A program made the translations under genes and the position numbers. Below are positions 6,267-58,225 of a DNA stretch of 60,404 nt, in pieces; position 1 is the stretch's first letter, and each line of letters begins with the position of its first letter. This DNA is from Sphingomonadaceae bacterium (GTDB lineage Bacteria > Pseudomonadota > Alphaproteobacteria > Sphingomonadales > Sphingomonadaceae): the NCBI GenBank assembly GCA_021300355.1, contig JAJTEF010000027.1:1-60404 (forward strand), in the 5' to 3' direction. A model generated the notes under the pieces. It was given only the letters and a program-made list of their open reading frames with translations. It ran no database searches and was not told where the DNA came from.

Positions 6267-6968
6267 TCATGCGGCGGCGGATATGTCCTGAAGCCGTGGT
6301 CGGTCTTGAATGGCCACCGTCCGGCGATCCGGCAGGTTGATGACACCGCCGGCTTTCAACAGCGATAATTGCCGGCTGACCGTTTCAATGGTTAAGCCAA
6401 GAACATCGCCCATTTGTTGGCGGTCGAGGGGCAATTCAAATCTATCCAAGTCGCTTTTGTCCGCCGAACAGCCCGTCTCACCAAGGCGTGCAGACATTTC
6501 CAACAGCAAGGTCGCAATGCGTTCCGTCGCGGTCTTCTTCCCCAACAGCAACATCCATTCATGGGCGCGATCAAGCTCAGTCAACGTCCGCCGCAGCAGC
6601 TTATGCTCCAGTTCCGGATGCTGCCGCGCGAAGCTGTCAAAAGTGGAGCGAGGAAAAATGCATAATTCGGCATCTGTGAGCGCAGTGACGCTATAGGGGT
6701 TTTGCTGACCAAAGGGCCGGCCGATAAAATCAGAGGCGAAGACAAGACCGACAATTTGTTCGCGTCCATCCGGAATGCTCATGGACACTTTAAGGACGCC
6801 TTCGATGACGTTGGCGACGACAACCGAATCATCGCCTTCCCAAACAACCGTCTGTCCCTTTGTCACGCGCTGCTTGCGGCCAAGCTGCCCCAACGCATCA
6901 AGCTCATCGGGTTCAAGGCCGGCGCAAATTGCACGGTTACGCACAACGCATTGGGAGCAGTCCTTCAT
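6267..6968 (-). CDS. Crp/Fnr family regulator with FNR-type cysteine pattern
   Basis: A 233-residue transcription factor with an N-terminal cyclic-nucleotide-like sensor fold and a C-terminal helix-turn-helix. Cysteines at residues 4, 7 and 15 plus C103 match the spacing of the four [4Fe-4S] ligands of FNR (three N-terminal, one about 100 residues later), so an oxygen-labile cluster is likely. The recognition helix reads IETVSRQL; the E..SR pattern is the one FNR uses to read TTGAT half sites. This suggests an FnrL/FixK-like anaerobic or microaerobic activator. It lies alone between the ABC operon and tRNA-Met, read leftward. No adjacent respiratory genes are present to name its targets. Confidence 0.9.
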   Translation of the reverse strand: MKDCSQCVVRNRAICAGLEPDELDALGQLGRKQRVTKGQTVVWEGDDSVVVANVIEGVLKVSMSIPDGREQIVGLVFASDFIGRPFGQQNPYSVTALTDAELCIFPRSTFDSFARQHPELEHKLLRRTLTELDRAHEWMLLLGKKTATERIATLLLEMSARLGETGCSADKSDLDRFELPLDRQQMGDVLGLTIETVSRQLSLLKAGGVINLPDRRTVAIQDRPRLQDISAAA

Positions 6969-7057
6969 AACCCAAGCTTAGCCCTCGCGTGGGCGACGAG
7001 CAACAGCTCATGAAGCCCGTGGCGGCTATTGTCTGGCCAATCATATATGTGGGAGGA

Positions 7058-7134
7058 TGGTAGCGAGGGAGGGACTTGAACCCCCGACCTATGGATTATG
7101 ATTCCACCGCTCTAACCAGCTGAGCTACTTCGCC
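7058..7134 (-). tRNA. tRNA-Met (anticodon CAT)
   Basis: Reading leftward, 77 bases fold as a tRNA with encoded CCA: acceptor GGCGAAG, D arm GCTCAGCTGGTTAGAGC, anticodon stem GTGGA/TCCAT with loop ATCATAA, and T loop TTCAAGT. The anticodon CAT with a normal D arm fits elongator Met; a lysidine-modified Ile2 cannot be excluded from the anticodon alone, but the body resembles elongator Met. As I align it, acceptor position 6-67 is an A-C mismatch and 1-72 is a G-T wobble. Confidence 0.93.
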
Positions 7135-7221
7135 ATCCAAGCGTGAATCCCGGCGTTTGCGGGGAAGCACGCGGCGCTATAAGCGTGGGGGGTGCATGGG
7201 TCAAGGGCTGCGAAACGTTAT

Positions 7222-7728
7222 TCAGCCGCGAAATGCCCATCTGCCAATCTGTTCCCACGGACCGCCGCGATAATAATAAGCAGCGAGGCCATAAATCGAC
7301 AAGGATCGGGGCTGAAAATTGCTGGAAAGCGTTTCATACAACGCTTTCGCAATGGCGGGTTCGACCTTGTTCTGGACGGTGATGTGCAGCCGCGGGCGGG
7401 CTTGGTCCTGCGGTATGAGTAGTCCACGAAACGCTTCGGCCAATGCATCGCGAATCGAGAGGAGTTCAGGGCTTTCAACGCGATAGGCAACACCGCCACC
7501 CAGGTTCATAAGGTCACTTAAACGGGCCTTCGGAGTAGGACATTCAGCCGCAAGAGCCGCCAAGCGTGCTTTGACCTCGGCAATATGGCCCGGCGGCAAA
7601 TGGTGGAACAGCGTAATATGCGCATCGACCATGTTGCGGTCGGCAGGATAATGCGCGCGCCGCAAACCATTAGCCCACGCCTGATCCGCTTTGCCCATTT
7701 CGGCGGTGATGATGATGGGTGCGGTCAT
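7222..7728 (-). CDS. 2H phosphoesterase (2'-5' RNA ligase-like) family protein
   Basis: A 168-residue cytoplasmic protein with the two HxT motifs that define the 2H phosphoesterase superfamily: HITLFHHL near residue 39 and HITVQNKV near residue 120. Members act on 2'-5' linkages or cyclic phosphodiesters of RNA and nucleotides, but the substrate of this subgroup is generally unknown. I start it at the ATG at 7728 because the sequence upstream in frame is not protein-like. It lies between the terminator behind rplI and tRNA-Met, on the same strand, so it needs its own promoter or read-through. Confidence 0.8.
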   Translation of the reverse strand: MTAPIIITAEMGKADQAWANGLRRAHYPADRNMVDAHITLFHHLPPGHIAEVKARLAALAAECPTPKARLSDLMNLGGGVAYRVESPELLSIRDALAEAFRGLLIPQDQARPRLHITVQNKVEPAIAKALYETLSSNFQPRSLSIYGLAAYYYRGGPWEQIGRWAFRG

Positions 7729-7792
7729 GACCGATGCCTCGCAGGTGAATGGACATATATGCGCTTCGTATAGCACCGGCAAAATATGGCAC

Positions 7793-9207: not shown

Positions 9208-9344
9208 GGGCGTTTCCTTGTTCCTACCGATCGCTGACGCAGCACCATGCATACGCCCCTCCGGCTTTCTTCGTTTTCACAAGGGTTACCCCAAGCGAAG
9301 TGGCGCGCTTAGGTGGGATTTGCGGGAAAAGCAAGCGATTTGGG

Positions 9345-9833
9345 CTATCGCTTTTTAACCTCGTCCACCGCTGTGATATAGGCCACAGGGATAGAAATCA
9401 TAAATGTTTGCGTGCTGCTCTGCGACCGAACCTGAATTTGCACGATACCGTCAACGGCATATTTCGCGATTTCTGCACGAGATAGTTGAATCGAAAAATT
9501 TTCAGTTAGGGTGCACCCGTACCGGCAACTTCCTACTTTTCCATCTGTTCTGGTGTACCTGACCGGATCACCACCCCGAAAAACAGCAGACTTATAAAAG
9601 CGCCACTCGCCGGAATACATAACGAAGCCTTGGTAAGCATTAATCGTAGGAGTCGCACCTTTCTTGATTGCCGCTACAAAAAAAGCCCCGGTTAAGTTGC
9701 CATCAGAAATATCAATGCTCGGAGCAACGTATTCATAGCGACCAGCAAAATCGTCTCCGTTTACACTGATAGTCACACCGTTAGATGCGGTCACCGCAGT
9801 TTCGGCAGCACTTAACGGAGCAGCGGCAAGCAA
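9345..9833 (-). CDS. Small exported protein of unknown function, start uncertain
   Basis: I do not recognise a family. The mature part (about 150 residues) looks like an extracytoplasmic beta-rich protein with two close cysteines (CRYGC). The first available start, TTG at 9833, would leave a signal peptide that is too short (MLAAAPLSAAE). In the same frame upstream the codons read as a good hydrophobic core (IFSICALL), but no ATG, GTG or TTG precedes it before a stop. A GTG with a plausible N-terminus lies in another frame near 9880, so a one-base frame change at the 5' end is possible. Base composition is more AT-rich than its neighbours, which hints at recent gain. Confidence 0.55.
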   Translation of the reverse strand: MLAAAPLSAAETAVTASNGVTISVNGDDFAGRYEYVAPSIDISDGNLTGAFFVAAIKKGATPTINAYQGFVMYSGEWRFYKSAVFRGGDPVRYTRTDGKVGSCRYGCTLTENFSIQLSRAEIAKYAVDGIVQIQVRSQSSTQTFMISIPVAYITAVDEVKKR

Positions 9834-9918
9834 CGCACAAATCGAAAATATTTGTTGAGACAGAATTTGGATTAGTATTCACAACATTCAACGCGCGGAC
9901 CTCTGAATACAATAAAGG

Positions 9919-11307
9919 TTATTTTTGCGCCAAAATATCTGCCGCAAACGCGCTCAACGTATCATCGCGCGCGCCCATGATGACGATACGGTCGCCGGGT
10001 TGCGCGAGATCGACCATGCGGTTGCCGCAATCTTCGCGCGACGGGATATATTCGGCGTTTTGGCCTGCTGCAGTGACAGCGTCGGTGATGCTTTGGCTAC
10101 CAATGCTCTTGTCGACGGTGCCGCCAAAATAGACGGGATCGCAAAGGATGAGGTGATCGTCCTTGCCCAGCATGTCTGCAAAAACGCCCGCTAATTCAGC
10201 GCCCATCACGCGAATTGGGCCGTAGCCATGCGGTTGGAAGAAGGCGATGATCCGGCCCGGGAAGGCTTTGAGTGTTGCAAGCGTTGCGGCGATCTTGTCG
10301 GGGTTGTGGCCGAAATCGTCGATGACCGTGATGTCGTTTGCGGTGCCGACAATGTCGAAGCGGCGGGCGAGGCCATTGAAACGCTCTATCGCCCGAACAG
10401 CCTGCGCGACGGTCACGCCGAGTGCGGTCGCGGCGGCGATGGCGGCAAGTGCGTTGGCGATATTGTGGCGACCGGGAACGATGAGCGCGACGTCATGGGT
10501 ATCGCCCACTGCGTTGAGCGTGAAACGGCTGCCCAGCGGCAGGTCCACGATATCGGTCGCGCGGAAATCAGCTTGCGCTGAAAAGCCGAAGCTGATGGCA
10601 CCTGCCAGCGCCAAGGGTTCCACGAGCGCCACAGTCTCCGCGTCATCGGCGTTCCACACGCTTGTCTTTGCTTTCTTGGCAAAGTCACCGAACAGCTGGC
10701 GCAATTCTTCAAGACTTTTATGGTCGAGGCTGACATTGTTGAGCACCGCGACTTCGGGGGCGAACAAGGCGATCGAGCCATCGCTTTCGTCGACCTCCGA
10801 AACGAAAACGTCCCCCTGCCCCACACGCGCGCTGGCAAAAGGCGCGTCATCGGCGACGAAATTTTTCATCACCGCGCCGTTCATGATTGTTGGGTCGAGC
10901 CCTGCATCGGTCAATATCCAGCCGATCATGCCCGTGACGGTGGATTTCCCGCTGGTCCCGCCAACGGCAACGCTGCGCGGCGCATTATTGAACAAGTCCG
11001 CGAGCAGTTCGGCGCGCGTCATGCGGGCACAGCCTAAGGCATTCGCCTTGGCCACGTCCGGCACGCTGTCTTCGATAGCGGCAGACGCAATCAGGATTTG
11101 GTCACCGCTGATAAGGCCGCTGCCGTCTTGGGCAAACAGGTCGATGCCAAGGCTTTGTAACCATTCAAACTTGGCGCCCAAGCGGCCTTGATCCAGCGCG
11201 CGGTCCGACCCGGCGACGGTTGCACCGGCATCCCGAACGATATTCGCCAAGGGCAACATGCCCGAACCGCCAACGCCACAGAAGAAATAGGATTTGTTTT
11301 TGTGCAT
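9919..11307 (-). CDS. Mur ligase family protein, probable Mpl-like murein tripeptide ligase
   Basis: A 462-residue ATP-dependent ligase with the three Mur domains: a Rossmann-type N-terminal domain with CGVGGSGMLPLA (residues 10-21), a central ATPase domain with P-loop GGTSGKST (116-123), and a C-terminal domain with the nucleotide-site motif DDFGHNPDKI. MurC and Mpl usually read GTHGKTT at the P-loop, so the Ser for His and the following Ser-Thr are a variant. It is not next to the mur/fts cluster but head-to-head with an LD-carboxypeptidase, which releases the tripeptide that Mpl re-attaches to UDP-MurNAc. I therefore favour a recycling ligase over MurC. Another UDP-sugar or peptide acceptor is possible. 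Confidence 0.78.
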   Translation of the reverse strand: MHKNKSYFFCGVGGSGMLPLANIVRDAGATVAGSDRALDQGRLGAKFEWLQSLGIDLFAQDGSGLISGDQILIASAAIEDSVPDVAKANALGCARMTRAELLADLFNNAPRSVAVGGTSGKSTVTGMIGWILTDAGLDPTIMNGAVMKNFVADDAPFASARVGQGDVFVSEVDESDGSIALFAPEVAVLNNVSLDHKSLEELRQLFGDFAKKAKTSVWNADDAETVALVEPLALAGAISFGFSAQADFRATDIVDLPLGSRFTLNAVGDTHDVALIVPGRHNIANALAAIAAATALGVTVAQAVRAIERFNGLARRFDIVGTANDITVIDDFGHNPDKIAATLATLKAFPGRIIAFFQPHGYGPIRVMGAELAGVFADMLGKDDHLILCDPVYFGGTVDKSIGSQSITDAVTAAGQNAEYIPSREDCGNRMVDLAQPGDRIVIMGARDDTLSAFAADILAQK

Positions 11308-25490: not shown

Positions 25491-26892
25491 TTATGTTGGG
25501 TCCCGCCCGAGATATTGCAACAGGTGCCAGCCCCGTCCGTTGGCAAAGTGCCCCAAAAGCCCGGGTCGCACGACCGACCAGCGCAGCGGATTGGCAATCG
25601 GAATAAAGCCGACCGTGGATTGCATTTCGGCTTCCGCCTGCCCCAATAATTGCACACGCACCGTCATGTCCTTTGTCATGCGCGCCTCTGCGACGATTGC
25701 GTCCGCCCGCGCGCTGCATATTGCGGCAAATTTGCAGGACAATTGGTCCAGATACCATGCAGGGCTGGACTGTTGCGCCGTCAGGTCAATCAAACGCAGG
25801 TCATGCGGCCGGTCGGCGGTCACCCGCTCAATATCGACACCCACGGCCGCTAAATCAGCGCGCAGACGCGCAAAAAATATGCGGCTGCCGTACCCACGTG
25901 GCAGGGCAACTCGCAAAGGCCGGATGGCCCCGTTCGCGCGCTTCCAGTTTGCAATGCTTGCAGCGGCCATGGATCGTCGTTGGTCCATGGATGGCACCGC
26001 CCAATCGGGCCGAGCAATGTCCGCGCGGTTCGGTAAGCTTTCGGGCACCAGCGTGACCGTTTCGCGCCATGCGAATATGTCGAAAGCTGTCAGCAACTTT
26101 GGCCGGTCAATGGCCATCGCGATTGCCGTCCGGTTGTCCTTGTCCGCTAAAAAAGGACCCGCTTGCACCACCATCAATCCAAACAAACCCGGGACCGCAT
26201 CAAACTGGATCTCATTGGCATTGATCCTTGCCGCTTCGAGCAATGGGAAGGTTTCAAAACGGCCGCCCTCAATCAAATCGCGTAACGGTTGCGGTGCCAA
26301 GAACCGCCGTCCCCTCTGCATCCATTTCATTGCGCCGCAACTGCATGGCCTGACCCAATTTCTTGGCCTGCATCGGGCCGGACCCGGCACCGCGACGTAA
26401 TAATCCGAATTCAGGCAAAGCAAGCAGCTCAAGCAAATAAGGCATCGGGGCCTTCAGCCGGATTTCAACGACCTTGCCTGTCATTGCGACGACGCGGTCG
26501 ATGACGGCAAGCTCCTCGCCCCAACGGCCCTTTTTAAGTTCGCTTACACGCCGGGTCAAAAGCTGCGCGACCTCTTGCGAGTTTAGTTCGCGCCCATCGT
26601 TCCACCGCGCCTTATTCAGGCGGAAGATATAACTCATACCGTCGTCATTAACGATCCAGCGGCTCGCCAACCCCGGCGCAACGCGGCCTTTTTCGTCAAA
26701 GGTGACCAACCCCTGTGCCGTTGCACTGCGCAGATAGGCAGAGGCGAGCGGTAATGGTGAGGCGGACACGTTAAAGGGCTTGGGACGATCCTCAATCACA
26801 TCGACGCGGACCCGTTCATTGTCGACGCCCTGCGAACAACCGGCAAGTGTAGCCGACAGCAACAAAAGCAAAAACGGCAGCAAACGGGTCAT
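25491..26892 (-). pseudogene. Solute-binding lipoprotein of ABC transporter (SBP family 5), frameshifted
   Basis: The gene encodes a peptide/nickel-type extracellular solute-binding protein anchored as a lipoprotein: MTRLLPFLLLLLSATLAGC ends in a lipobox. Frame one runs from 26892 to about 26300 and covers the first domain (SRWIVNDDGMSYIFRLN, RWNDGREL). A second frame continues the same protein (LAPQPLRDLIEGGRFETFPLL) to 25491. The switch is a one-base shift near 26305, in a G-rich stretch. The two frames together give about 466 residues, a reasonable but short SBP. No permease or ATPase genes adjoin it. Either a true pseudogene or a sequencing error; re-sequencing the G-rich site decides. 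Confidence 0.8.
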
Positions 26893-27403: not shown

Positions 27404-28327
27404 TCAACTTCGTCGAAAGAGGGCCGATATCACGGCATGCTCGGCGTCACTGCGCACTTTGCCTTCACGGCTGCGTTGCAATTCGGCGGCGACGCGTGCT
27501 TCTTTCTCAACCTTGGCGCGGGTGGCCGCCTCCAGTTCCGCCTCAGCGCGCGTCAATTCCGCGACCGAGCGGCAATCGCCACGAACCGTCCGGAACGCGA
27601 CGCCTTGATTGTCGAGAAATGCCGCAAGCTCGCGTGTCGATATGGCGAAGTAGAACTCGGCACCGCCATCGTTCGCTACTGATCCAAAGCTGTTGATGCC
27701 AACAACGCGGCCACATGCATCGACAATCGGCCCGCCGCTATTGCCCGGTGCAATGGGCGCGGTGTGTAAAAGCGATTCAACGGACTTCGATGTCCGGCCT
27801 GAAGAAATGGTCCCCCGCGTTTTAACGGGCGGTTGCGGGCGCAGCACGTCCGCCTCGCTTTGTTCAAGCGCCACATCCACGCTAGCCGGATAACCAATCG
27901 CAAAGACATCCGCGCCATCGGATACCGTGCCCGCAAATATGCTTGCGGGGACCAAGGCGCCCGAAGAAAGCTGCAGGAGCGCAAGGTCCTTGCGCGCGAC
28001 CACGGCGGACACCGTGGCGCGATAGCTTTGTGTCCCGTCAGACGGCACAACGACAATTTCGACACTGTCGTCAAAGCGCGCCTGTTCCACGACATGGGCG
28101 TTGGTAATGACCTTGTTGCGGTCAACAACCACGCCAGAGCCAATGCTGACGATAGTCTGCTGGCCTTCTGCGGAGCTAAAAACGACGATGCGCACGACAC
28201 TGCGGGCGGCAGCGCTAATATCACTCGCATCTGCATAGACCGGGGTCGCAACGACCGCGCCGAGAACACATGCCAGCGCGAGCGCGAGTTTTTTAATGCT
28301 TGAATACAAGGACCGAAAGACCATCAT
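27404..28327 (-). CDS. Trypsin-like (S1C) serine protease, exported
   Basis: A periplasmic serine protease with signal peptide (residues 1-32, ending TPVYA). The catalytic triad is readable: H78 in ITNAHVVE, D114 in RKDLALLQL and S197 in APGNSGGPI. No PDZ domain follows; instead residues 260-300 are a charged, Ala/Glu/Arg-rich probable coiled coil. The frame stops at 27404, but the downstream frame appears to continue the protein (see entry at 26935). The start overlaps the stop of the class A PBP by four bases, so the two are co-transcribed, which suggests an envelope role. Confidence 0.88.
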   Translation of the reverse strand: MMVFRSLYSSIKKLALALACVLGAVVATPVYADASDISAAARSVVRIVVFSSAEGQQTIVSIGSGVVVDRNKVITNAHVVEQARFDDSVEIVVVPSDGTQSYRATVSAVVARKDLALLQLSSGALVPASIFAGTVSDGADVFAIGYPASVDVALEQSEADVLRPQPPVKTRGTISSGRTSKSVESLLHTAPIAPGNSGGPIVDACGRVVGINSFGSVANDGGAEFYFAISTRELAAFLDNQGVAFRTVRGDCRSVAELTRAEAELEAATRAKVEKEARVAAELQRSREGKVRSDAEHAVISALFRRS

Positions 28328-34882: not shown

Positions 34883-37213
34883 TTACATGCGGAAGCGCAA
34901 GCTTGCACCCATGTAACGATCTGCATCACGTGGAATATGCAGACGCTGGCCAGCGCTGGTATTCAGCAGCACATAGCTTTCGTCTGTGATGTTGCGGACG
35001 ATGAAAGTCAGGCGCCAGTTGTCTTCGGCGTCCGAATATCCAACACTTGCATTCCACAGACCATAGCTGTCGATTGGTCCGCTCTGGCCCAGATCCGAGA
35101 ACTGGCTGCCAACATGATTGTAGCTCGTCCGCAAATAAACCTTCGCATCTTTACCGAACATATTGAACGGCGATTCGTACGATGCGCCGATGTTCCAGCT
35201 CCATGTTGGAGCCAAAGGCAGCTTCGTGCCGTTGCGGGCGTCCGGTGCGTTGGTCAGCGGGTTCGGGTTGAACCGGCGTACCTTGGCATCTGCATAAGCA
35301 ACGCTGCCGAACAGGTCGAGACCTTCAACAGGGTTGGCAAGTGCATCCAGTTCAAAACCCGTGCTGCGCACTTGGCCAGCATTGGTCAAGTTGGTAACAA
35401 CTGCACCATTCAAAAGCACGAAGTTGTTCGCTTGGAACCCGTCATAGGTCACTTGGAATGCCGACGCATTCAATTGAATGCGGTTGTCGGCAAACTGGCT
35501 CTTAATGCCAGCTTCAAACGAATCTGATGTTTCTTCATCGATCGGCACTGCGTTGACGGGTGCCGTGTGATTGAAGAATACGTTGAACGCTGGGCCCTTA
35601 TAGCCACGCGTGTAGCTGCCGTAGACCATGACATCGTCCGTTGGCTTCACAGCAAGCACTGCCTTGCCGGAGAAATTGCTGTTGCTAGACGATCCGGTTG
35701 ACAGCGCCGTTCCGTTACCGCCGGATGCAACTGTGCCACCAGCAGGCGAACCCGAGATACCGGCACCCGTTGCCGCCGCGCCATTGGTGCGGTTTACGCC
35801 TGGTGCACGGTTGTGCGTGTAATCGATAGCGTCATGCGTCCAGCGCATGCCAACGGTTAGACCGATGCGATCAGTGAAATCATATGTTGCCTGACCGAAC
35901 ACAGCATAGTTTTCGATATCAACTAAGCTGTTTGATGTGGCCGTCGGAAACAATGTATTGACGGTATCTGTAAGGTTACAGGGACGAGCACCCGTAAGCG
36001 CGTCAACAGCCGAAGTGGATGTTGTGCACGTGGTAACGTTACGCGTGAAGTCCTGCGTATTTTCGGATTTCCAGTAAAACGTCCCGACCTGATATTTGAA
36101 CGCTTTGCTTTGGTCTGACGCCAAACGCACCTCAAGCGAGCTTTGGTTGGTTTCGACAAAGCCACGGTCATGCAATTGTGGCGTACCAACAACCGCGCGG
36201 GGCAAGAAATCGCCTTCGCGGATTTCTGTATTGTTCCAGTTACGATATCCGTAAATCGCGCTCAACGTGTAGTCAGAAAATACATCGAAATCTGCGTTTA
36301 TCGTGACGCCGACTTGACGATCCAACGACTCCGTTACGAGATTATGGTTCACGAAGCGCTGATTTTCACCTTGGGCCACGCCCAATGGAAGGTTCAGCTC
36401 TGCGTCCAGCGCCGCACCGCGCGAAACGCCGGTGACTTCGCCACAGCAATCATCATCGGCTTCATAATAATCTGCGATGAGCTTGATCCGTGCGGGACCA
36501 TTGTTAAAATCAAGCAATCCGCGGAAACCGACATGCTCATAACCATTCACTTTGTTATTCGTACCGCCAAATATGTTGGTGATATTGCCTTCATACGTGC
36601 CGTAAAATGCGTTTGCGCGGAAAGTCAGGCTTTCTGCGACTGGGCCGGAAACGGTTGCACGGCCACGATATTCGCCGCCTTCAAAACCCTCTACGGTAAC
36701 TTCGCCCTCAAGCGTGTCTGTACCACCCTTGGAAACGACGTTGATAAGACCAGCCGACGCGTTCTTGCCAAACAAGGTGCCTTGCGGCCCGCGCAGCACT
36801 TCGAGGCGCTCGATTTCCACCAGATCGGCAAATGCCTGACCCGAACGGCTCAACACAACGCCGTCGACAACGGTAGAAACACTTGGTTCTGCAGCGATTG
36901 AGAATGAAATCGTTCCAACGCCACGCAACACAACAGCCGAGTTGGCGTTGGTCGTGCCCTTGCGGAATGTGACCGATGGAACGAGCTGGCTCAGATTCTC
37001 AAGGCTGGTTGTGCCTGCCGCCGCCAAGGCGTCACCAGAAACGGCAGTGATGGCGATTGGCACATCCTGCAAATTTTCTTCGACCTTCTGGGCCGTAACA
37101 ACAATTTCCTCAACCTGCGCAAACGCTGGTGCGGACACTCCTAGCGCGATTGCGCTGGTGCCGAGCAATGCTGCGCGAACAAGGTTCGTCTTTTTATACG
37201 TTGAAAAATGCAT
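34883..37213 (-). CDS. TonB-dependent outer-membrane receptor
   Basis: A 776-residue energy-driven outer-membrane transporter. A signal peptide (ending VSAPAFA, about residue 32) is followed by the short TonB-box-like EEIVVTAQK and the plug domain (SLENLSQLVPSVTFRKG, LRGPQGTLFGKNASAGLINVVSK). A beta-barrel fills the rest, ending in LRFRM with the usual C-terminal aromatic strand. No FecA-type signalling extension is seen. It is divergent from the sulfoquinovose operon with a 212-base shared region, so its substrate is probably a sulfoquinovose glycoside; receptors of this style were first described for iron complexes, so this is inference from context. Confidence 0.9.
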   Translation of the reverse strand: MHFSTYKKTNLVRAALLGTSAIALGVSAPAFAQVEEIVVTAQKVEENLQDVPIAITAVSGDALAAAGTTSLENLSQLVPSVTFRKGTTNANSAVVLRGVGTISFSIAAEPSVSTVVDGVVLSRSGQAFADLVEIERLEVLRGPQGTLFGKNASAGLINVVSKGGTDTLEGEVTVEGFEGGEYRGRATVSGPVAESLTFRANAFYGTYEGNITNIFGGTNNKVNGYEHVGFRGLLDFNNGPARIKLIADYYEADDDCCGEVTGVSRGAALDAELNLPLGVAQGENQRFVNHNLVTESLDRQVGVTINADFDVFSDYTLSAIYGYRNWNNTEIREGDFLPRAVVGTPQLHDRGFVETNQSSLEVRLASDQSKAFKYQVGTFYWKSENTQDFTRNVTTCTTSTSAVDALTGARPCNLTDTVNTLFPTATSNSLVDIENYAVFGQATYDFTDRIGLTVGMRWTHDAIDYTHNRAPGVNRTNGAAATGAGISGSPAGGTVASGGNGTALSTGSSSNSNFSGKAVLAVKPTDDVMVYGSYTRGYKGPAFNVFFNHTAPVNAVPIDEETSDSFEAGIKSQFADNRIQLNASAFQVTYDGFQANNFVLLNGAVVTNLTNAGQVRSTGFELDALANPVEGLDLFGSVAYADAKVRRFNPNPLTNAPDARNGTKLPLAPTWSWNIGASYESPFNMFGKDAKVYLRTSYNHVGSQFSDLGQSGPIDSYGLWNASVGYSDAEDNWRLTFIVRNITDESYVLLNTSAGQRLHIPRDADRYMGASLRFRM

Positions 37214-37322
37214 CCTGTGCCTCCCTTAATTGCCGCCCGCTTGTTGCAGTTTCAGAGAAGTTGGACCCCTAAAACCATGCAGATCGACGTGATAGTTGTT
37301 GATAACGGGGTTGATGTAACCA

Positions 37323-37348
37323 ACACCGCTTGATATGTCTAGCGGTGT
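37323..37348. promoter_or_regulatory. Inverted repeat in the TonB receptor/GH31 divergent promoter, candidate LacI operator
   Basis: ACACCGCT (37323-37330) and AGCGGTGT (37341-37348) form a perfect eight-base dyad with a ten-base spacer, in the only divergent region of the locus. The LacI-family regulator encoded in the operon is the obvious candidate to bind it. The spacer is long for a classical LacI site, so this is a candidate only. Confidence 0.45.
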
Positions 37349-37425
37349 CATATAGCGACAATATTTAGGCAAAGACTGTGGCAATCATGCCATAGTGCTT
37401 GCCGTGACGGCGAAAAGGACCCGCG

Positions 37426-39328
37426 TTGCCATTTTCAATTATCATGCACCCCGAAGGCTTTGACCTGCTGCATGGTGATGTCAGCATGTTGTCGCACCGG
37501 AATGACGCGCCTGCGATCAGCATCGGCAGCGGGCGGCCTGACTTGGACATGGTGCGCGGCAATTTCCGCGTCGACGATGTCGTTGAAACACGATTGCCGC
37601 TCGATTGTTTCGTCCAAGTCGATGGCTGTATCCGGCTTTGGAACGCAAAGCGGCCTGACGTCGTCGCAACGCTGGTGCTTGAGGAACGGGCGCTACAATC
37701 CATCCTCACATTTCGCTGCACAGATCCGGCTTTTAACCGGCTTTGGATAGATATGCAGTGCGCAACATCCGAAGCCTTTTGGGGTGGCGGCGAACAGATG
37801 TCCTATCTGCGCCTCAACGGCCGGCGCTTTCCGTTCTGGACATCTGAACCCGGCGTTGGCCGTGACAAATCGACCGCACTTACGCAGACGATGGATGCAG
37901 ATGGCTTGGCCGGCGGTGATTATTGGACCACCAATTATCCACAGCCGACATGGGTAAGCAGTGCGCGTTACGCGGTGCACCTCGAAACGGCGGCCTATTC
38001 GGTGCTTGATCTGACGGACGCGGGCCGGGTTGGGGTCGAATGTTGGTCGGCAAATGTCGATCTGGAGCTTTTTGACGCGCCATCGCTTCCTGCGCTTGTT
38101 ACCAAAATGTCGGATCGCTTTGGTCGCCAGCCTGCCCTGCCAGATTGGGCCATTTCCGGTGCCATCGTTGGGCTGAAGGATGGTGTCGACACCTTTGACA
38201 GGTTCGAAAAAATCGCAGCCTCTGGCGCGGCGATTACGGGTCTGTGGTGCGAAGATTGGATCGGCATTCGTCAGACCAGCTTTGGCAAACGGTTGTTCTG
38301 GGACTGGAAATGGAATGCTGCCCGTTATCCGGATTTACCCGCACAAATTTCGGCGCTTGCCGAACGGGGCATTCGCTTTCTGGGCTATGTAAACCCCTAT
38401 CTGGCGGTGGATGGGTCGCTGTATCAAGAGGCACGCGCTGTCAACTTCCTTGCGCTGCGGCAGGACAGCGACGAGCCTTATGCCGTCGATTTCGGCGAAT
38501 TTGACGCAGGCGTTGTGGATTTCACCAACCCTGCCGCCGCGGCGTGGTTTGCCGACCGCATCATTGGTCAGAAAATGCTCGACTTCGGGCTTTCGGGATG
38601 GATGGCAGATTTTGGCGAATATCTGCCGACCGATGTGCGCCTGTTCGATGGTTCCGACCCGATGGAGGCGCATAATCGCTGGCCCGTGCTTTGGGCGAAA
38701 GTGAATGCAGACGCCATCGCATCGCGCGGCAAAACGCATGACGCGACATTTTTCATGCGCGCCGGTTTTTCGGGCGAGCAGGCGCATTGCCCGTTATTGT
38801 GGGCCGGAGACCAATGCGTCGACTTCACCCCGGACCGCAGAATTGATGCACCGTTGGATTGACTTGGCGGCCTTTGCACCCGTCATGCGCAGTCATGAGG
38901 GCAATCGCCCTGCAGACAATCTGCAACTCGATAGCAGCGCCGAAATACTCACCCATTTTGCGCGGATGAGCCAAGTACATGCCCGCCTTGCGCCATATGT
39001 CCGCGCCTTGTCCGACGAGGCTGTGGCGACGGGCCTGCCGCTTCAGCGTCCGTTGTTCCTGCACTATGACGACGCGGCCTATTACGACATTCAGGACCAA
39101 TATCTCTATGGCGCGGACATGATCGTCGCACCTGTGGTCAACGCGGGTGCAAGCAGCCGCAACGTCACTTTGCCCGATGGGGATTGGGTCCATCTTTGGT
39201 CCGGCGATGTTTACGCCAAGGGCACATATGACATTACGGCTCCGCATGGGCAGCCACCCGTGTTCACCCGCAAGGACAGCGCGCACGCATCGCTGTTCGG
39301 CGCGATCACACAAGAATTCCGGTCATGA
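37426..39328 (+). pseudogene. smoI: GH31 sulfoquinovosidase, broken by an internal deletion
   Basis: A GH31 glycosidase with sulfoquinovosidase (YihQ/SmoI) hallmarks, which releases sulfoquinovose from its glycosides. R289-L-F-W292 in SFGKRLFWDW matches the spacing of the sulfonate-binding R301 and W304 of E. coli YihQ, and D395 in GWMADFGEYLPTD matches nucleophile D405; RSHEGNRP also fits the group. At about 38830 the first frame (to VDFT) ends out of register and a second frame resumes at RTAELMHRW. The roughly 35 residues normally between them, including the acid/base Asp (HSDxGG), are missing. Start: TTG at 37426 with AAGGA upstream; an ATG at 37444 is the alternative. Stop overlaps lacI by ATGA. 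As read, the product is inactive. Confidence 0.85.
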
Positions 39329-40356
39329 ACACCCGATCCAATATCCGTGATGTCGCAAAGCTTGCCGGTGTGGCCGTCAAAACCGTCAGCCGCGTCCTCA
39401 ACAACCACCCTTATGTCAGTGCAGAAACCAAAGCGAAGGTCGACGCCGCGATGGCGGAACTGCGCTTTTCGCCCAGCATTGCAGCGCGCATATTGGCGGG
39501 CACGAAGTCCGGCCAAATTGCACTGATTTATGACAATCACAGCCCGTATTATATGCACCAGATCATGCAGGGCTGCTGGGACCGATGCCATGAAGAAGGC
39601 ATGCGCCTGATTGCGCAACCCGTCGATGTGTCCGACCCCGATGTGGGCGAACAGGTGCGCGGCATGGTCCGGCAGACGCATGTGGATGGCGCGATATTGT
39701 CGTCGCCCGTCACCGATTGCGGACCCGTGTTGAACGTCCTTGAAGCGATGAACATTCCCTTCGTGCGCATTTCGCCCGGCACCAACCATGCGCTTACAAG
39801 CTCGGTATTCATGGACGACATGCAGGCCGCGGACGACATGACGACGCACCTCATCAACATTGGTCACCGGCGGATCGCCTTTATCAAGGGCCATGCGAAC
39901 CATATGGCCAGCGCCGAACGTCAGGCAGGATATGAACGCGCGCTTGGCCGCGTTGGCATATCGGTGGATCCCGACTTAATCGCCGAGGGCCATTTTGATT
40001 TTGAAAGCGGCGTTGCGGCGACCGAGCAATTTCTATCGCTTAAATATCCGCCCACGGCGGTCTTTGCATCGAACGATGACATGGCCTCGGGTGTCCTTGC
40101 CGTGGCCCATCGCCGCGGTATTCAGGTGCCTGAACAATTGTCTGTCGCCGGGTTCGACGACACCACGCTTGCCCGCGTTGTTTGGCCGCCCTTAACCACC
40201 GTCCGCCAGCCTGTACGCGATCTCGCGTCAACCGCTGCCGACCTATTATTTGGCGAAGGCGGAATTGAGCATCGCCGTCTTCCACACGAACTGATCAGCC
40301 GCGAGTCGGTTGCCCCACCTTATTCACCTTCACTGAAAAAGAGCAAAAACACATGA
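39325..40356 (+). CDS. LacI family transcriptional regulator
   Basis: A 343-residue sugar-responsive repressor. The N-terminal helix-turn-helix reads IRDVAKLAGVAVKTVSRVLNN, followed by the hinge region, and a periplasmic-binding-protein-like effector domain (FASNDDMASGVLAVAHRRGI and LSVAGFDDT are typical). It starts within the GH31 stop and its own stop overlaps the reductase start (ATGA), so it is made with the enzymes it presumably controls. Effector is likely sulfoquinovose or a derivative, by context only. Confidence 0.93.
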   Translation: MNTRSNIRDVAKLAGVAVKTVSRVLNNHPYVSAETKAKVDAAMAELRFSPSIAARILAGTKSGQIALIYDNHSPYYMHQIMQGCWDRCHEEGMRLIAQPVDVSDPDVGEQVRGMVRQTHVDGAILSSPVTDCGPVLNVLEAMNIPFVRISPGTNHALTSSVFMDDMQAADDMTTHLINIGHRRIAFIKGHANHMASAERQAGYERALGRVGISVDPDLIAEGHFDFESGVAATEQFLSLKYPPTAVFASNDDMASGVLAVAHRRGIQVPEQLSVAGFDDTTLARVVWPPLTTVRQPVRDLASTAADLLFGEGGIEHRRLPHELISRESVAPPYSPSLKKSKNT

Positions 40357-41255
40357 CCCTTCCAACACCTCCGTCGACGCGCCTCTTGGGCAAGAGCGGC
40401 ATTGAAATTTCATCGATTGCCTGGGGCATGTGGCGTTTTGCGGGTCTTGAAATGTCCGCAGCCCACGCGGCCATTGATGCAGCGTTCGAAGCCGGCATTA
40501 CCCTTTTCGATACGGCGGACATCTATGGCTTTGGTGAACAAGGCTTTGGCAAGGCCGAGGAACTGCTCGGCCGCGTATTTGCAGAGGCGCCGGAATATCG
40601 TGACCGTATGGTGCTGGCCACCAAGGGCGGAATTACCCCGCCGACGCCATATGACAGCAGTGCTGAATATCTGACCAAGGCGATTGACGACAGCCTGTCG
40701 CGTTTGGGTACTGACTATGTCGACCTGTGGCAAATCCACCGTCCCGATATCCTCACCCACCCGCAAGAAATTGCACGCACCATCCAAGACGCGCACAAAG
40801 CCGGAAAAATTCGCGCTTTTGGTGTGTCAAACTTCACGACCGCGCAAATAACGACGCTGGCACAGTTCAGCAGCGTCCCGATTGTCTCGACGCAGCCGGA
40901 GCTTTCCCCATTGCGGATCGATACCATCGAAAATGGTGAGCTTGATCAAGCCATCGCCATGGATTTGGCGGTGTTGGCATGGTCGCCACTTGGCGGCGGT
41001 CGCATCGGCGACCCCGGCAACACGCGTGAACAAAATGTAGCGGCGGCCCTGTCGGGCGTTGCAGCAGCGCATGGCGTTTCACGCACCGCAGCGGCCTATA
41101 GCTGGATTATGGCGCACCCTGCCCGCCCCATCCCGATTGTTGGATCGCAAAACCCGGCACGCATCATGGAGGCTGCCGATGCCTTCAAAATCAAATGGAC
41201 CCGCGCTGATTGGTACAGCGTATTGGTCGCCGCGCGAGGAGTTCCCCTGCCATGA
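40353..41255 (+). CDS. smoB: Aldo-keto reductase, probable 6-oxo-glucose reductase (SmoB-like)
   Basis: A 300-residue NAD(P)H-dependent aldo-keto reductase. The catalytic tetrad is visible: D53 and Y58 in FDTADIYG, K91 in LATKGG and H129 in WQIHRPD. The cofactor region AWSPLGGG and VGSQNP follow. In the sulfo-SMO pathway SmoB reduces 6-oxo-glucose, made by the monooxygenase, to glucose. The assignment rests on its position between LacI and the SsuD-like monooxygenase and on ATGA coupling to both. A general aldo-keto reductase role is possible if the pathway assignment is wrong. Confidence 0.85.
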   Translation: MTLPTPPSTRLLGKSGIEISSIAWGMWRFAGLEMSAAHAAIDAAFEAGITLFDTADIYGFGEQGFGKAEELLGRVFAEAPEYRDRMVLATKGGITPPTPYDSSAEYLTKAIDDSLSRLGTDYVDLWQIHRPDILTHPQEIARTIQDAHKAGKIRAFGVSNFTTAQITTLAQFSSVPIVSTQPELSPLRIDTIENGELDQAIAMDLAVLAWSPLGGGRIGDPGNTREQNVAAALSGVAAAHGVSRTAAAYSWIMAHPARPIPIVGSQNPARIMEAADAFKIKWTRADWYSVLVAARGVPLP

Positions 41256-42319
41256 GCAATCCAATCGAAGTCAGCTGGTTCTCCGCATTATGCGACGATG
41301 ATTACGAATTTCTTGGGCAACCCGATCCCATGCTCGCGTCGAGTTGGGAGCATTGCCGCAATATCGTGCTCGCCGCGGAAAAGGGCGGGTTCGACAATAT
41401 ATTGCTCCCCTCGGGCTACACGCTTGGGTTGGATACCACTGCTTTTGCCAGCGCGATTGCGACGCTGACCACACGTATCAAGTTGCTGATGGCGGTGCGT
41501 ATTGGCGAAAGCTGGCCACCGCAATTGGCGCGACAGATTGCCACGCTGGACCAGATTTCGGGTGGGCGGTTGAACGTCAACATCATCTCGTCTGACTTGC
41601 CGGGCGACAAGATGGACAGCGAACCGCGCTATCGCCGGACGGTTGAGGCGATGCAGATCCTCAAGACATTGTTGAACGGCGAACATCTGTCGATTGATGG
41701 CGAGCATTATAAAATCGATCTCGATCCGCCACGCATGAAGACCGTCAGCTGCAAATGCCCGCCGCTATATTTCGGCGGCCTCTCGCCCGCGGCAAAGGAC
41801 GCTGCTGCCGAAGGTTGCGATGTATATTTGATGTGGCCAGAAACGGTTCAGGGCGCAAAGGACCTTGTCGAAGACATGACCGCGCGCGCGGCAAAATTTG
41901 GACGGACGTTGAAATATGGCTTCCGCGCGCATGTCATCGTGCGTGAAACCGAAGCTGAAGCCCGGGCCTATGCGGACCGCCTCTTGTCCAAGCTGGATGC
42001 GCAGCAGGGCGACGCAATCCGCAACAAATCCTTGGATACGCAAACCTTCGGTGTTGCGCATCAGGCCGAATTGCGCGCGCAATCGGAAGCGAACGACGGA
42101 TATCTGGAAGACAATCTGTGGACCGGAATTGGCCGCGCACGTTCAGGCTGCGGCGCGGCGATTGTTGGCGACCCGGACCAAGTGCTCGCCAAAATCGAGG
42201 CATATCGCGCGGTCGGCATCGAGGCGTTCATTTTATCGGGTTACCCGCACATCAACGAATGCGACATGTTTGCACGTTATGTCTTGCCGAAATTGGACCA
42301 TGGGCGGTTGGTAATCTGA
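41252..42319 (+). CDS. smoC: SsuD-like FMNH2-dependent monooxygenase, probable sulfoquinovose monooxygenase (SmoC-like)
   Basis: A 355-residue bacterial-luciferase-fold monooxygenase close in pattern to alkanesulfonate monooxygenase SsuD: LARQIATLDQISGGRLNVNIIS, PPLYFGGLS, HVIVRETEAEAR and FILSGYPHINE are all SsuD-type stretches. Such enzymes use reduced flavin and O2 to split a C-S bond, giving an aldehyde and sulfite. Beside a sulfoquinovosidase and an aldo-keto reductase, the natural substrate is sulfoquinovose and the product 6-oxo-glucose. The partner flavin reductase (SmoA) is not in the window. The ATG overlaps the reductase stop; the gene ends the operon ahead of a palindromic repeat. 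Confidence 0.85.
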   Translation: MSNPIEVSWFSALCDDDYEFLGQPDPMLASSWEHCRNIVLAAEKGGFDNILLPSGYTLGLDTTAFASAIATLTTRIKLLMAVRIGESWPPQLARQIATLDQISGGRLNVNIISSDLPGDKMDSEPRYRRTVEAMQILKTLLNGEHLSIDGEHYKIDLDPPRMKTVSCKCPPLYFGGLSPAAKDAAAEGCDVYLMWPETVQGAKDLVEDMTARAAKFGRTLKYGFRAHVIVRETEAEARAYADRLLSKLDAQQGDAIRNKSLDTQTFGVAHQAELRAQSEANDGYLEDNLWTGIGRARSGCGAAIVGDPDQVLAKIEAYRAVGIEAFILSGYPHINECDMFARYVLPKLDHGRLVI

Positions 42320-44760: not shown

Positions 44761-46615
44761 ATGAATCCACGCATATTGTCGCGCGCTATCGCCGCATTCG
44801 CCCTTTCCGCTAGCCTCGTTTCTGCAGCCTCTGCGCAAAACAGTGCGCCGCAGCCTGTGCCTATCGTCTCGAACATCCCCGAGCCGCAAGATCGCCCCTT
44901 GTCGGAACCAATGATCTTGTCTGTGGACGCTACCGATATTGATCGCGCCATTTTCCAAGTGCGTCAGGTCATTCCTGTAGAAAAAGGCAAGCCGCTGATC
45001 CTGCTTTACCCGCAGTGGTTGCCCGGCAAGCATGGCCCACGCGGTGCACTGGCCGAAATGACGGGGCTTATGATCCGCGCAGGCGGGAAGACGCTGCGTT
45101 GGACCCGCGACCCGGTTCAGGTTTACGCTTTTCATGTCGATGTGCCTGCCGAAACATCGTCGGTCGATGTAGAATTCCAATTCACAGCGCCTGTCCGCGA
45201 AAGCGAAGGCCGCATCAACGTCACGCCCAATATGATGAACGTACAATGGGAACAGGTTGCCCTGTACCCCGCTGGACATTTTACCCGCGCTATTCAGGTA
45301 AAGCCGTCGATTACACTGCCCGAAGGCTGGACGGGCGTGGCCGCGCTTGATGGTGCAAAGATTACCGGCAACCGCATCGATTATGGCGTGACCAACTTTG
45401 AAACATTGGTCGACAGCCCGATGTTCGCGGGACCGCATTATAAGAAATGGGATCTGGGCAACAATGTCACGCTGAACGTGTGGGCGGACGACGCCAAATA
45501 TCTGGCCGCGAAGCCAGAGCACATCGCTGCACATCGCGCATTGGTGGATGAATCGCTCCTGCTTTTTGGATCAAAGCATTTTGATCGCTACGAATTTCTC
45601 CTTGGCCTGACTGAAGAGCTTGGCGGCATTGGGCTTGAACATCATCGCAGCTCTGAAAATACGCGCGAGACCGACTATTTCATCGAATGGGAAGACAATA
45701 TGTCCGAACGCGGCCTGTTGCCGCACGAATTCACGCACAGTCTATGAAGGGCAGACCAGCTATTGGGATCTCGTGCTTGGTGCGCGCTCGGGCCTGCAAT
45801 CCAAAGAAATGGTGATGGGCGAATGGGCCAAATATGCGGGCTTTTACGCAGAGCAGCCCGGCCGCACATGGCGTTCAGTGGAAGACACCACGCATGATCC
45901 CATTTTTGGCGCACGCAAAGCAAAGCCATTCGCAAGCCACGCACGCGGCGAAGATTATTATAATGAAGGCTCGCTCATCTGGCTCGATGCGGACATGACG
46001 ATCCGCACGCTGTCAAAGGGCAAAAAATCACTCGATGATTTCGCCAAAGCCTTTTTTGGCGTGCGCAACGCCGACTGGGGCGTGCTCACTTATAATTTTG
46101 ATGAGATTGTCCGCACGCTGAATGCTGTGCAGCCTTATGATTGGGCGAAGTTTCTGGACACCAAATTGCGCCAACCGGGTCAGCCCGCACCGTTGAACGG
46201 TTTTGAATTGGGCGGGTACAAACTTGTCTGGAAAGAAGAGCCGAACATCTTCGACAAAGAACTGATGAAGGAAGGCAACAACTTCAACCTCACCCACTCG
46301 CTGGGGCTGACGTTGGATAAAGAAGGCCGCGTCACGTCTGTATTATGGAACGGCCCTGCTTTTAAGGCCAATATTGTCAACGGCACCAAAATCGTTGCCG
46401 TCAACGGCTATGCTTACTCCAAAGACGGCCTGAGCGCGGCAATCAAGGCCGCAAAGGGTGGAGAAAAGCCCGTGCGCCTTATATTGGAACGCAACAAACG
46501 TTTTGAGCAAATAGACATCGCCTATTCGGGCGGCTTGCGCTATCCGCACCTCGAAACCACGGACAAGGGCGAAACGGCGATCGATCGTTTGCTGCGTCCG
46601 CGGCGGACCAACTAA
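44761..46615 (+). pseudogene. M61 family (glycyl aminopeptidase type) peptidase, broken by an internal deletion
   Basis: An exported zinc peptidase with signal peptide (MNPRILSRAIAAFALSASLVSAASAQ). The first frame reads the N-terminal domain to the zinc motif H322-EFTH, then stops at 45747. A second frame resumes at VYEGQTSYWDLVLGA, which carries the third zinc ligand Glu, and continues through the helical domain to a C-terminal PDZ domain (LGLTLDKEGRVTSVL) ending 46615. In family members about 27 residues (starting HSW, ending LLW) lie between the two; here the junction is at 45739/45740 and the frame changes. The product as read is inactive. Deletion in the genome or in the assembly cannot be told apart. 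Confidence 0.85.
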
Positions 46616-56684: not shown

Positions 56685-58225
56685 CTAGGTAAACCCTAGA
56701 AATTGCTGCTGCTGCTGCCACTCCATCGGGATATCTGCACAGCGCATCAGGTGACGGGCGGTCAGTTGAACCGGCTGCCGACCGTCAAGAATGGCGGTTA
56801 TGATGTCCGGTGCTAGCCAAGACATCCTTGCGAGCCGATGCAAGTGCCGCTTTTCATAACGTGATACTGCTGGAATTTCTGCGCCGGTTAGGAGATGCTC
56901 TCTTGCTGCAAAACCCTGAACCACGAGGCGAACGAGGGCAGCATCCGCATTTTTGTCATTGGCGGACTCGCCATCAGGCGACAGGGCAATCCGAACCTCA
57001 TTTCCTCGGCGAACCATTTGTGCAGGCGTCGTTATAGTAACTGCATCTTCATCCCCAATCACAACGTCGATCCGGTCGGCGGCAACATTCACCTTCACAA
57101 GACGGTCGATCAATATCGCACGCAACTCGCTCGTTGTAATATGGTCAAGGCTGTCAGCTAACGCAGCTTCGGCTTGGCAATTGGCCTGCCATTCTACCTT
57201 GCATGTTGATGCATCGGGTTCAGCGGGCTTTTTGAGATATGTCTTCAAAGTTTTCATGACAATCTGATCGAGAGGGCCAGCTGGCAGTCTGCAGATAGTT
57301 GAGCGGTCTTCGCCTGGTTTCAACCGGGTGACATAATAGCAATATTGCTTCGATCCCTTCTTTCCGCGTGACGGCGACATTGGCCTGCCATCAGGATCAG
57401 TGACAAGGCCTGCCAAAAGACTTGGCGACTTTGCATGCTTCGATATCAGCTTATCGCGGGTGTTACCCGCAAGCGTAGCCTGGACGCGATCAAAGGTGTC
57501 GTGATCGATTATCGGATCATGCTCACCGTCATAAACGGCATCCTTATGTTTGATCTTGCCAATGAACATGGGGTTCTTGAGCAGGAACCCCAGTGGTCCT
57601 TTTCCAAAGCAGACATTGCCGATGGTACCACCCGCCTTGCGATGGCGCGTGCGGGTGCGCATGCCGCGTCGTGCGAGGTCATCTACCAGTGCCGGAACGG
57701 ATTTGAGCTCAAGATAGCGGTTAAAGATATAACGAACGTCTTCTGCTTCGTGAGGCTCGATAAGTAACTTGCGGTCTTCAACACGATAGCCATGGGGAAC
57801 CGTACCTCCCATCCACATGCCTTTACGCTTGGATGCAGCTATCTTGTCACGGATGCGTTCGCCTGTGACCTCGCGTTCGAACTGCGCAAACGACAGCAAT
57901 ACATTGAGCGTCAAACGCCCCATGCTGTTCGTGGTGTTGAACGCCTGTGTAACGCTCACGAACGACGCGCCTTTTGCATCAAGAATCTCGACGATCTTGG
58001 CAAAGTCCGCAAGCGACCGGGTCAGCCGGTCAACCTTATAGACCACAACAAGCCGCCGTCATCGTATAGCTCGCCAACTTGTTCCCATCCCTCGCCTGCC
58101 TGGCTCAATATATAAGCCGCACATGCTTCGCGCTGCGCATCCAGGCTGTTGAAGTCCATCTCCAGCCCCTCCTCGGTCGATTTGCGCGTGTAGATGGCAC
58201 AGCGTTTGCGGTTAGGTGATATCAT
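56685..58225 (-). pseudogene. Large serine recombinase, broken by a deletion in the catalytic domain
   Basis: A large serine recombinase of the phage/transposon integrase type. The start ATG at 58225 overlaps the DUF2924 stop (ATGA). The first frame gives [12 protein letters not shown] with the nucleophile serine and [13 protein letters not shown], then LYDDGG, and breaks at 58049/58050. A second frame resumes at [16 protein letters not shown] and runs through the recombinase domain and zinc-ribbon-like region to 56685. About 24 residues normally found between (FSGG and RPAL motifs) are missing with a frame change. The catalytic domain is therefore not made whole. Confidence 0.88.

Follow-up and report, generated by a model that had tools for sequence, protein, structure and literature searches.

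How does a sphingomonad bring in and break down sulfoquinovose if neither an ATP-binding cassette (ABC) importer nor a flavin reductase lies beside its catabolic genes? The question is raised by a locus at positions 34883 to 42319 of a 60,404-nucleotide stretch of DNA from a Sphingomonadaceae bacterium (GCA_021300355.1, contig JAJTEF010000027.1). This stretch, here called the window, forms contig C18 of an assembly with 75 contigs and 2.18 Mb, 99.69% complete and 0.34% contaminated. An earlier note, made from the sequence alone, proposed an oxidative sulfoquinovose (sulfo-SMO, alias sulfo-ASMO) pathway fed by TonB-linked uptake. It described a TonB receptor divergent from GH31, LacI, aldo-keto reductase (AKR) and SsuD-like genes joined by three ATGA overlaps. 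That layout is correct (the overlaps are at 39325-39328, 40353-40356 and 41252-41255), and phylogeny, synteny and a shared operator support both the pathway and the TonB-linked uptake. We argue that the locus is probably the larger part of a regulon for the use of sulfoquinovosyl glycerol that LacI controls. The second half would lie on another contig, C65, and hold a major facilitator superfamily (MFS) transporter, a putative sulfate exporter and GlpD.

The placement of the monooxygenase supports the pathway. The earlier note named a monooxygenase that falls with SsuD or other alkanesulfonate enzymes, together with a GH31 outside the sulfoquinovosidase clade, as grounds against its pathway; in the tree the monooxygenase does not fall with SsuD. 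The window protein groups with the solved SmoC chains and is split from SsuD at 100/100 (23 rows; rooted for display, with the positions of the long branches L266 and L111 unsure). Against structure chains it scores 366 bits with 7olf and 363 bits with 7oh2, compared with 200-219 bits for the SsuD chains 7jv3, 1nqk and 1m41. We take 7olf and 7oh2 to be SmoC structures; their names in the database are methanesulfonate sulfonatase and alkanesulfonate monooxygenase. The window protein is 52% identical to 7oh2, presumably the Agrobacterium enzyme. The AKR likely acts as the 6-dehydroglucose reductase, an assignment that rests more on position than on sequence. PMC13372026, in the part available to us, uses a distance of at most 10 open reading frames between SmoB and SmoC, and here the two genes are adjacent and overlap if the AKR is taken as SmoB.

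Related monooxygenases occur in other settings too. On a Rhizobium plasmid (L262 7793-10059) LacI and an ABC cluster of the arabinonate type adjoin the gene for a monooxygenase 68% identical to the window's; that stretch has no annotated AKR or GH31. An Emticicia plasmid (L266 5950-11878) encodes a 47% identical one, with a GH95 gene and a sodium/solute symporter as neighbours.

The earlier note suggested looking for the same gene order in other sphingomonads. SmoC matches at E<=1e-60 occur in 79 of 298 genomes: the source genome, one with a 38% match, and 77 with at least 64% identity. These 77 gave 78 loci, two of them from G007 (86% complete, 7% contaminated), and 63 were left when 15 with short flanks were dropped. 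Cassette genes were counted as tblastn matches within 10 kb of SmoC at score cut-offs that we set. An AKR is near SmoC in 60 loci, the receptor in 58, an MFS transporter in 49, LacI in 44 and GH31 in 36. The PF03601 exporter is found in 29, GH188 in 24 and GlpD in 21, and just three loci have neither hydrolase. The most frequent single order (10/63) is exporter, MFS, receptor, GH31, LacI, AKR, SmoC, GlpD. The series TonB receptor-GH31-LacI-AKR-SmoC is a common cassette of the Sphingomonadaceae. The host, called a probable sphingomonad in the earlier note, is close to Sphingorhabdus: its SmoC is 94% identical to that of S. wooponensis, 92% to that of S. contaminans and 91% to that of S. profundilacus.

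We use the label GH188 on the basis of L051, which scores highest with chains 8qc3 (371 bits) and 8qc2 (361 bits); 8QC2 is named as GH188 in the available part of PMC11465081. In L036, from the window's genus, a GH188-type gene (6544-7740) replaces GH31, and SmoC is directly followed by a flavin reductase of PF01613 (10885-11376). Novosphingobium pentaromativorans US6-1 has GlpD and then glycerol kinase 3' of SmoC, and a Rhizobium cluster whose SmoC is 87% identical to 7oh2 also has a putative sulfate exporter.

A candidate operator would tie these genes together. A block in the receptor/GH31 intergenic region, TATGTCTAGCGGTGTCATAT, is invariant in the window and 14 aligned relatives, even where the receptor differs. 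For counting it was relaxed to ATGTCNNGCGNTGTCAT. Across the 63 loci all 17 perfect sites, all 43 sites with at most one mismatch and 53 of the 58 with at most two are found immediately 5' of cassette genes; these sites come from 33 loci. For 100 shuffled motifs the mean was 0.63 such sites and the maximum 9. The site is present in 31 of the 35 loci that have both GH31 and LacI and in two of the seven with GH188 and LacI, but in neither the one locus with GH31 and no LacI nor any of the 17 with GH188 and no LacI.

The genome-wide count leads to the second locus. Two perfect sites, no more, occur in the source genome and in each of its two closest relatives, G137 (of the same genus) and G192; in G269, which belongs to that genus too and is of the GH188 type, there are none. 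The second site of the source genome (C65:22208-22224) lies between the MFS gene and the PF03601 gene, about 65 bp before the likely MFS start. Both neighbours of the site have counterparts in G137 and G192 with 97-99% identity. Other users of sulfonates export sulfate with PF03601 proteins such as SuyZ. We place the MFS transporter, the exporter and GlpD in the regulon because they adjoin a second perfect copy of the candidate operator and because such genes flank the cassette in other genera. The genus thus seems to hold a sulfoquinovosyl-glycerol regulon split over two loci, and the MFS protein is most likely the inner-membrane importer that the earlier note judged lacking. A GPH symporter on C16 was considered as importer and set aside: the nearest site has one mismatch and falls inside the end of an acyl-CoA dehydrogenase frame. 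This one-mismatch site is nevertheless common to three genomes (C16:19592-19608 in the source genome, G137:C9:39030-39046, G192:C1:237432-237448).

From the gene families, the SmoC clade, the conserved order and the two operator sites we infer substrates, directions of transport and repression as follows. The TonB receptor would carry the substrate across the outer membrane and the MFS symporter across the inner membrane. GH31, predicted to be cytoplasmic from the lack of an obvious signal peptide in an intact relative, would split sulfoquinovosyl glycerol into sulfoquinovose and glycerol. SmoC, supplied by an unlinked flavin reductase, would cleave the C-S bond to give sulfite and 6-dehydroglucose, which the AKR would reduce to glucose. 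The glycerol would be used through GlpD beside the exporter and a kinase elsewhere, and the PF03601 protein would export sulfite or sulfate. LacI would repress both loci through the same operator.

Two receptor forms about 41% identical occupy the same site in Sphingorhabdus-type loci (L112-L114, L116-L122, L124, L126, L128, L130, L132, L141), where the cassette is otherwise conserved. They are mixed on a FastTree tree of the joined LacI, AKR and SmoC alignments, in which several nodes are weak. The synonymous divergence (dS) of the window's receptor from that of G137 is 0.063, compared with 0.13-0.25 for the neighbouring genes measured. This low value suggests recent recombination at the receptor between the window's lineage and G137.

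Features of the two loci; positions are those of the window unless a contig is given
Feature	Position	Strand	Basis
TonB-dependent receptor, 776 aa, outward from a promoter shared with GH31	34883..37213	-	PF00593 + PF07715
Candidate LacI operator TATGTCTAGCGGTGTCATAT	37333..37352, core 37335-37351		invariant in window + 14 relatives
GH31, sulfoquinovosidase type, 5' part, ends in shifted frame	37426..38862	+	NF007746 554.8 bits, profile 15-481
GH31 break, 110 bp of G137 and G192 absent	38829..38830		comparison with both relatives
GH31 3' part, other frame	38846..39328	+	NF007746 217 bits, profile 510-679, open reading frame 38705-39328
LacI-family regulator, 343 aa	39325..40356	+	PF00356 + PF13377
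Aldo-keto reductase, 300 aa, likely 6-dehydroglucose reductase (SmoB/SquF role)	40353..41255	+	PF00248
Sulfoquinovose monooxygenase, SmoC/SquD type, 355 aa	41252..42319	+	structure-chain scores + tree
MFS transporter	C65:20884-22143	-	below cut-off of its best NCBIfam model
Putative sulfate exporter	C65, beside second site, followed by GlpD		PF03601 159 bits
GlpD, glycerol-3-phosphate dehydrogenase	C65, after exporter		NF009906 735 bits

GH31 matches solved sulfoquinovosidases. The 5' part scores 557 bits with chain 5ohy, named yihQ in the database and presumably the Agrobacterium sulfoquinovosidase. The residues that the earlier note matched to YihQ R301, W304 and D405 are present and aligned: R289, W292 and D395 align with 301, 304 and 405 of YihQ chain 5aed, counted from the alignments, and D462 aligns with the acid/base residue at 472. 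The sulfoquinovosidase type is assigned from these alignment scores and residues rather than from a tree. The gene is not the single open frame that the earlier note took it to be. Frame 1, which could also start at an ATG at 37444, stops at 38862 and the rest lies in frame 2. Compared with both closest relatives 110 bp are absent at about 38830. The gap shifts the frame and removes about residues 469-505 of an intact 670-aa relative, including HHSDLGGYT. The tyrosine of this motif aligns with YihQ 508, which we take to be a third sulfonate-site residue. The missing stretch was considered as the holder of the acid/base aspartate; the alignment rules this out, as D462 is retained. Of 22 examined named loci of the Sphingorhabdus type, 16 have a GH31 frame of at least 669 aa. 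In the other six there is one GH31 piece at an edge, four loci that end before the gene, and one (L129) of the GH188 type.

One explanation is that the break is real. The strain would then have lost its sulfoquinovosidase lately and could use only free sulfoquinovose. The junction in the contig is clean and without N, no second GH31 was found in a search across the genome, and a GH188 query had no match there, in a search without a positive control. However, the source genome is cut in the same way in other genes. Four more long genes in the window have frame-cutting gaps: a trypsin-like gene lacks 166 bp at 27421, an M61 peptidase gene 80 bp at 45740 and, in the comparison with G137 only, a recombinase gene 73 bp at 58048; the fourth gap, at 26280, measures 53 bp. 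A gene on contig C4 that we take to resemble AhpF has a gap of 178 bp (L206 9853). Together with that of GH31 this makes six gaps of 53-178 bp, and measured against G137 none has a length divisible by 3. When G137 and G192 were compared over the same stretches as a matched control, no frame longer than 235 aa spanned any of the nine junctions. Contig C4 contains a run of 84 N, so the assembly was scaffolded. Other gaps in the window fall outside long frames (e.g. 42355, 51119), and the window also has an insertion at 9341-9926, with 586 bases against 43 in both closest relatives.

The substitution rates point the same way. The dN/dS ratio is 0.088-0.098 for the 5' part (intact copies 0.085-0.113) and 0.120-0.172 for the 3' part (intact copies 0.069-0.218). 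GH31 shows no relaxed selection and both parts evolve like intact copies. Since other genes are cut alike and selection on GH31 is not relaxed, the break probably arose in the assembly. A true loss, which would have to be very recent, is unlikely, although it is the strongest of the alternatives considered here.

It is also worth considering that the second operator site could be a chance match or a result of coding constraint, in which case the MFS transporter, the exporter and GlpD would be outside the regulon. It overlaps a codon at which the PF03601 gene might start. When up to two mismatches are allowed the genome has many sites (23+18, with 2+2 for the reversed pattern), and such weak sites mean little. 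For a perfect site the case is different: about 0.02 would be expected by chance, as we estimate for 14 fixed bases in 2.18 Mb. Genes of these kinds flank the cassette in other genera, where 16 sites are upstream of the MFS gene and 14 upstream of the exporter, and the MFS protein on C65 is 77% identical to the cassette-adjacent MFS of L039 and L043. We consider this alternative improbable.

Several observations weigh against the regulon as we propose it. The motif was picked on part of the loci counted, after the alignment had been viewed, and was then relaxed, so its counts there do not amount to an independent test; the source genome's second perfect site does. The site is missing in four of the 35 loci with GH31 and LacI and in five of the seven with GH188 and LacI. 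The exporter is not within reach of SmoC in 34 of the 63 loci and GlpD is not in 42. Both transporters on C65 score below the cut-offs of their models; the exporter reaches 102 bits, where TIGR00698 (YeiH family putative sulfate export transporter) has a curated cut-off of 232.6. For the AKR, chain 7bbz (167 bits), which we take to be SmoB, leads 4r9o (152 bits) by a small margin. The sole GH31 of the genome is broken as assembled, and no flavin reductase is tied to the locus.

The last alternative, that the cassette serves another sulfonate or glycoside, draws on a substrate assigned from sequence and on the Rhizobium plasmid described above, and it is very improbable given that GH31 and SmoC match solved enzymes, presumably those of sulfoquinovose breakdown, and that GH188, a second sulfoquinovosidase family, replaces GH31 in 24 of the 63 loci.

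We can now return to the importer and the reductase. The earlier note was right that none is close by: the open reading frames near the locus include no ABC importer (a genome-wide search for one was not made), and those next to it include no flavin reductase. It was probably wrong to conclude that an importer is lacking, given the MFS gene with the same operator on C65. The absence of an ABC importer and SmoA is also weak ground for calling the locus unusual. An MFS transporter is the common neighbour of SmoC in the family, a flavin reductase like that of L036 is found near it in one of the 63 loci, and Novosphingobium aromaticivorans also lacks a local reductase (PMC9594981, as far as available). 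Given that single occurrence, a PF01613 reductase was rejected as a regular component of the cassette, in a count limited to this one reductase family. Reviews state that some sulfo-SMO clusters have no flavin reductase (PMC9594981, as far as available), so the lack of a local one does not exclude a locus from the pathway.

The genome search that the earlier note proposed found a probable transporter and, for the reductase, a candidate only. This candidate, the sole PF01613 domain detected, lies on C56 and shares 42% identity with the reductase of a Rhizobium cluster that also has SmoC, AKR and a Gfo/Idh gene. This domain ends a 416-aa frame (L235 7272-8522 = C56:50271-51521) whose start resembles an alpha/beta hydrolase; the frame may be a true fusion or another collapsed gap. 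The genome also holds a PF00174 molybdenum oxidoreductase (C63), an FGGY-family kinase (C10) and a weak PF03358 match (C59).

The enzymes are not new, because the same pathway without a local flavin reductase has been described for N. aromaticivorans DSM 12444 (SquD, SquF, YihQ), as far as the available part of PMC9594981 goes. That organism belongs to the same bacterial family and shares the sulfoquinovosidase, monooxygenase and AKR and the lack of a local SsuE-type reductase. The differences are in what surrounds the enzymes: in that part of PMC9594981 there is no mention of a TonB receptor, a LacI operator, an exporter or a glycerol gene, and in the window's genus the regulon appears split over two loci. 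Agrobacterium tumefaciens has the same three enzyme roles (SmoI, SmoB, SmoC) with SmoA and an ABC importer (available parts of PMC9594981 and, for some of it, PMC12890257), whereas the window system has a TonB receptor and an MFS transporter in place of that importer and no local flavin reductase. Clusters with the NAD+-dependent GH188 sulfoquinovosidase, which occurs in sulfo-SMO clusters according to the available part of PMC10755693, have the same downstream enzymes. Unlike the window, GH188 loci mostly lack LacI (17/24) and the operator (22/24). In the literature searched, mostly as titles and the starts of abstracts, there is no report of a sphingomonad TonB receptor or LacI regulon for sulfoquinovose, and the word TonB is absent from the available text of PMC13372026.

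On balance we favour a wider reading for the Sphingomonadaceae, with somewhat less confidence than for the locus itself. The family would have a whole LacI-switched system for sulfoquinovosyl glycerol: uptake by a TonB receptor and an MFS transporter, an exchangeable GH31 or GH188, SmoC and AKR, a branch for glycerol and a sulfur exporter. Sphingorhabdus would have it divided between two loci joined only by the operator, with a receptor repeatedly swapped between the two forms. A short operator with a defined gene set is directly testable and a possible marker in metagenomes. The candidate importer, judged missing and then located through its operator, is an illustrative case. How sphingomonads take up sulfoquinovose and control its use matters since Novosphingobium was the dominant assimilator when labelled sulfoquinovose was given to a mangrove sample, according to the available part of PMC13372026.

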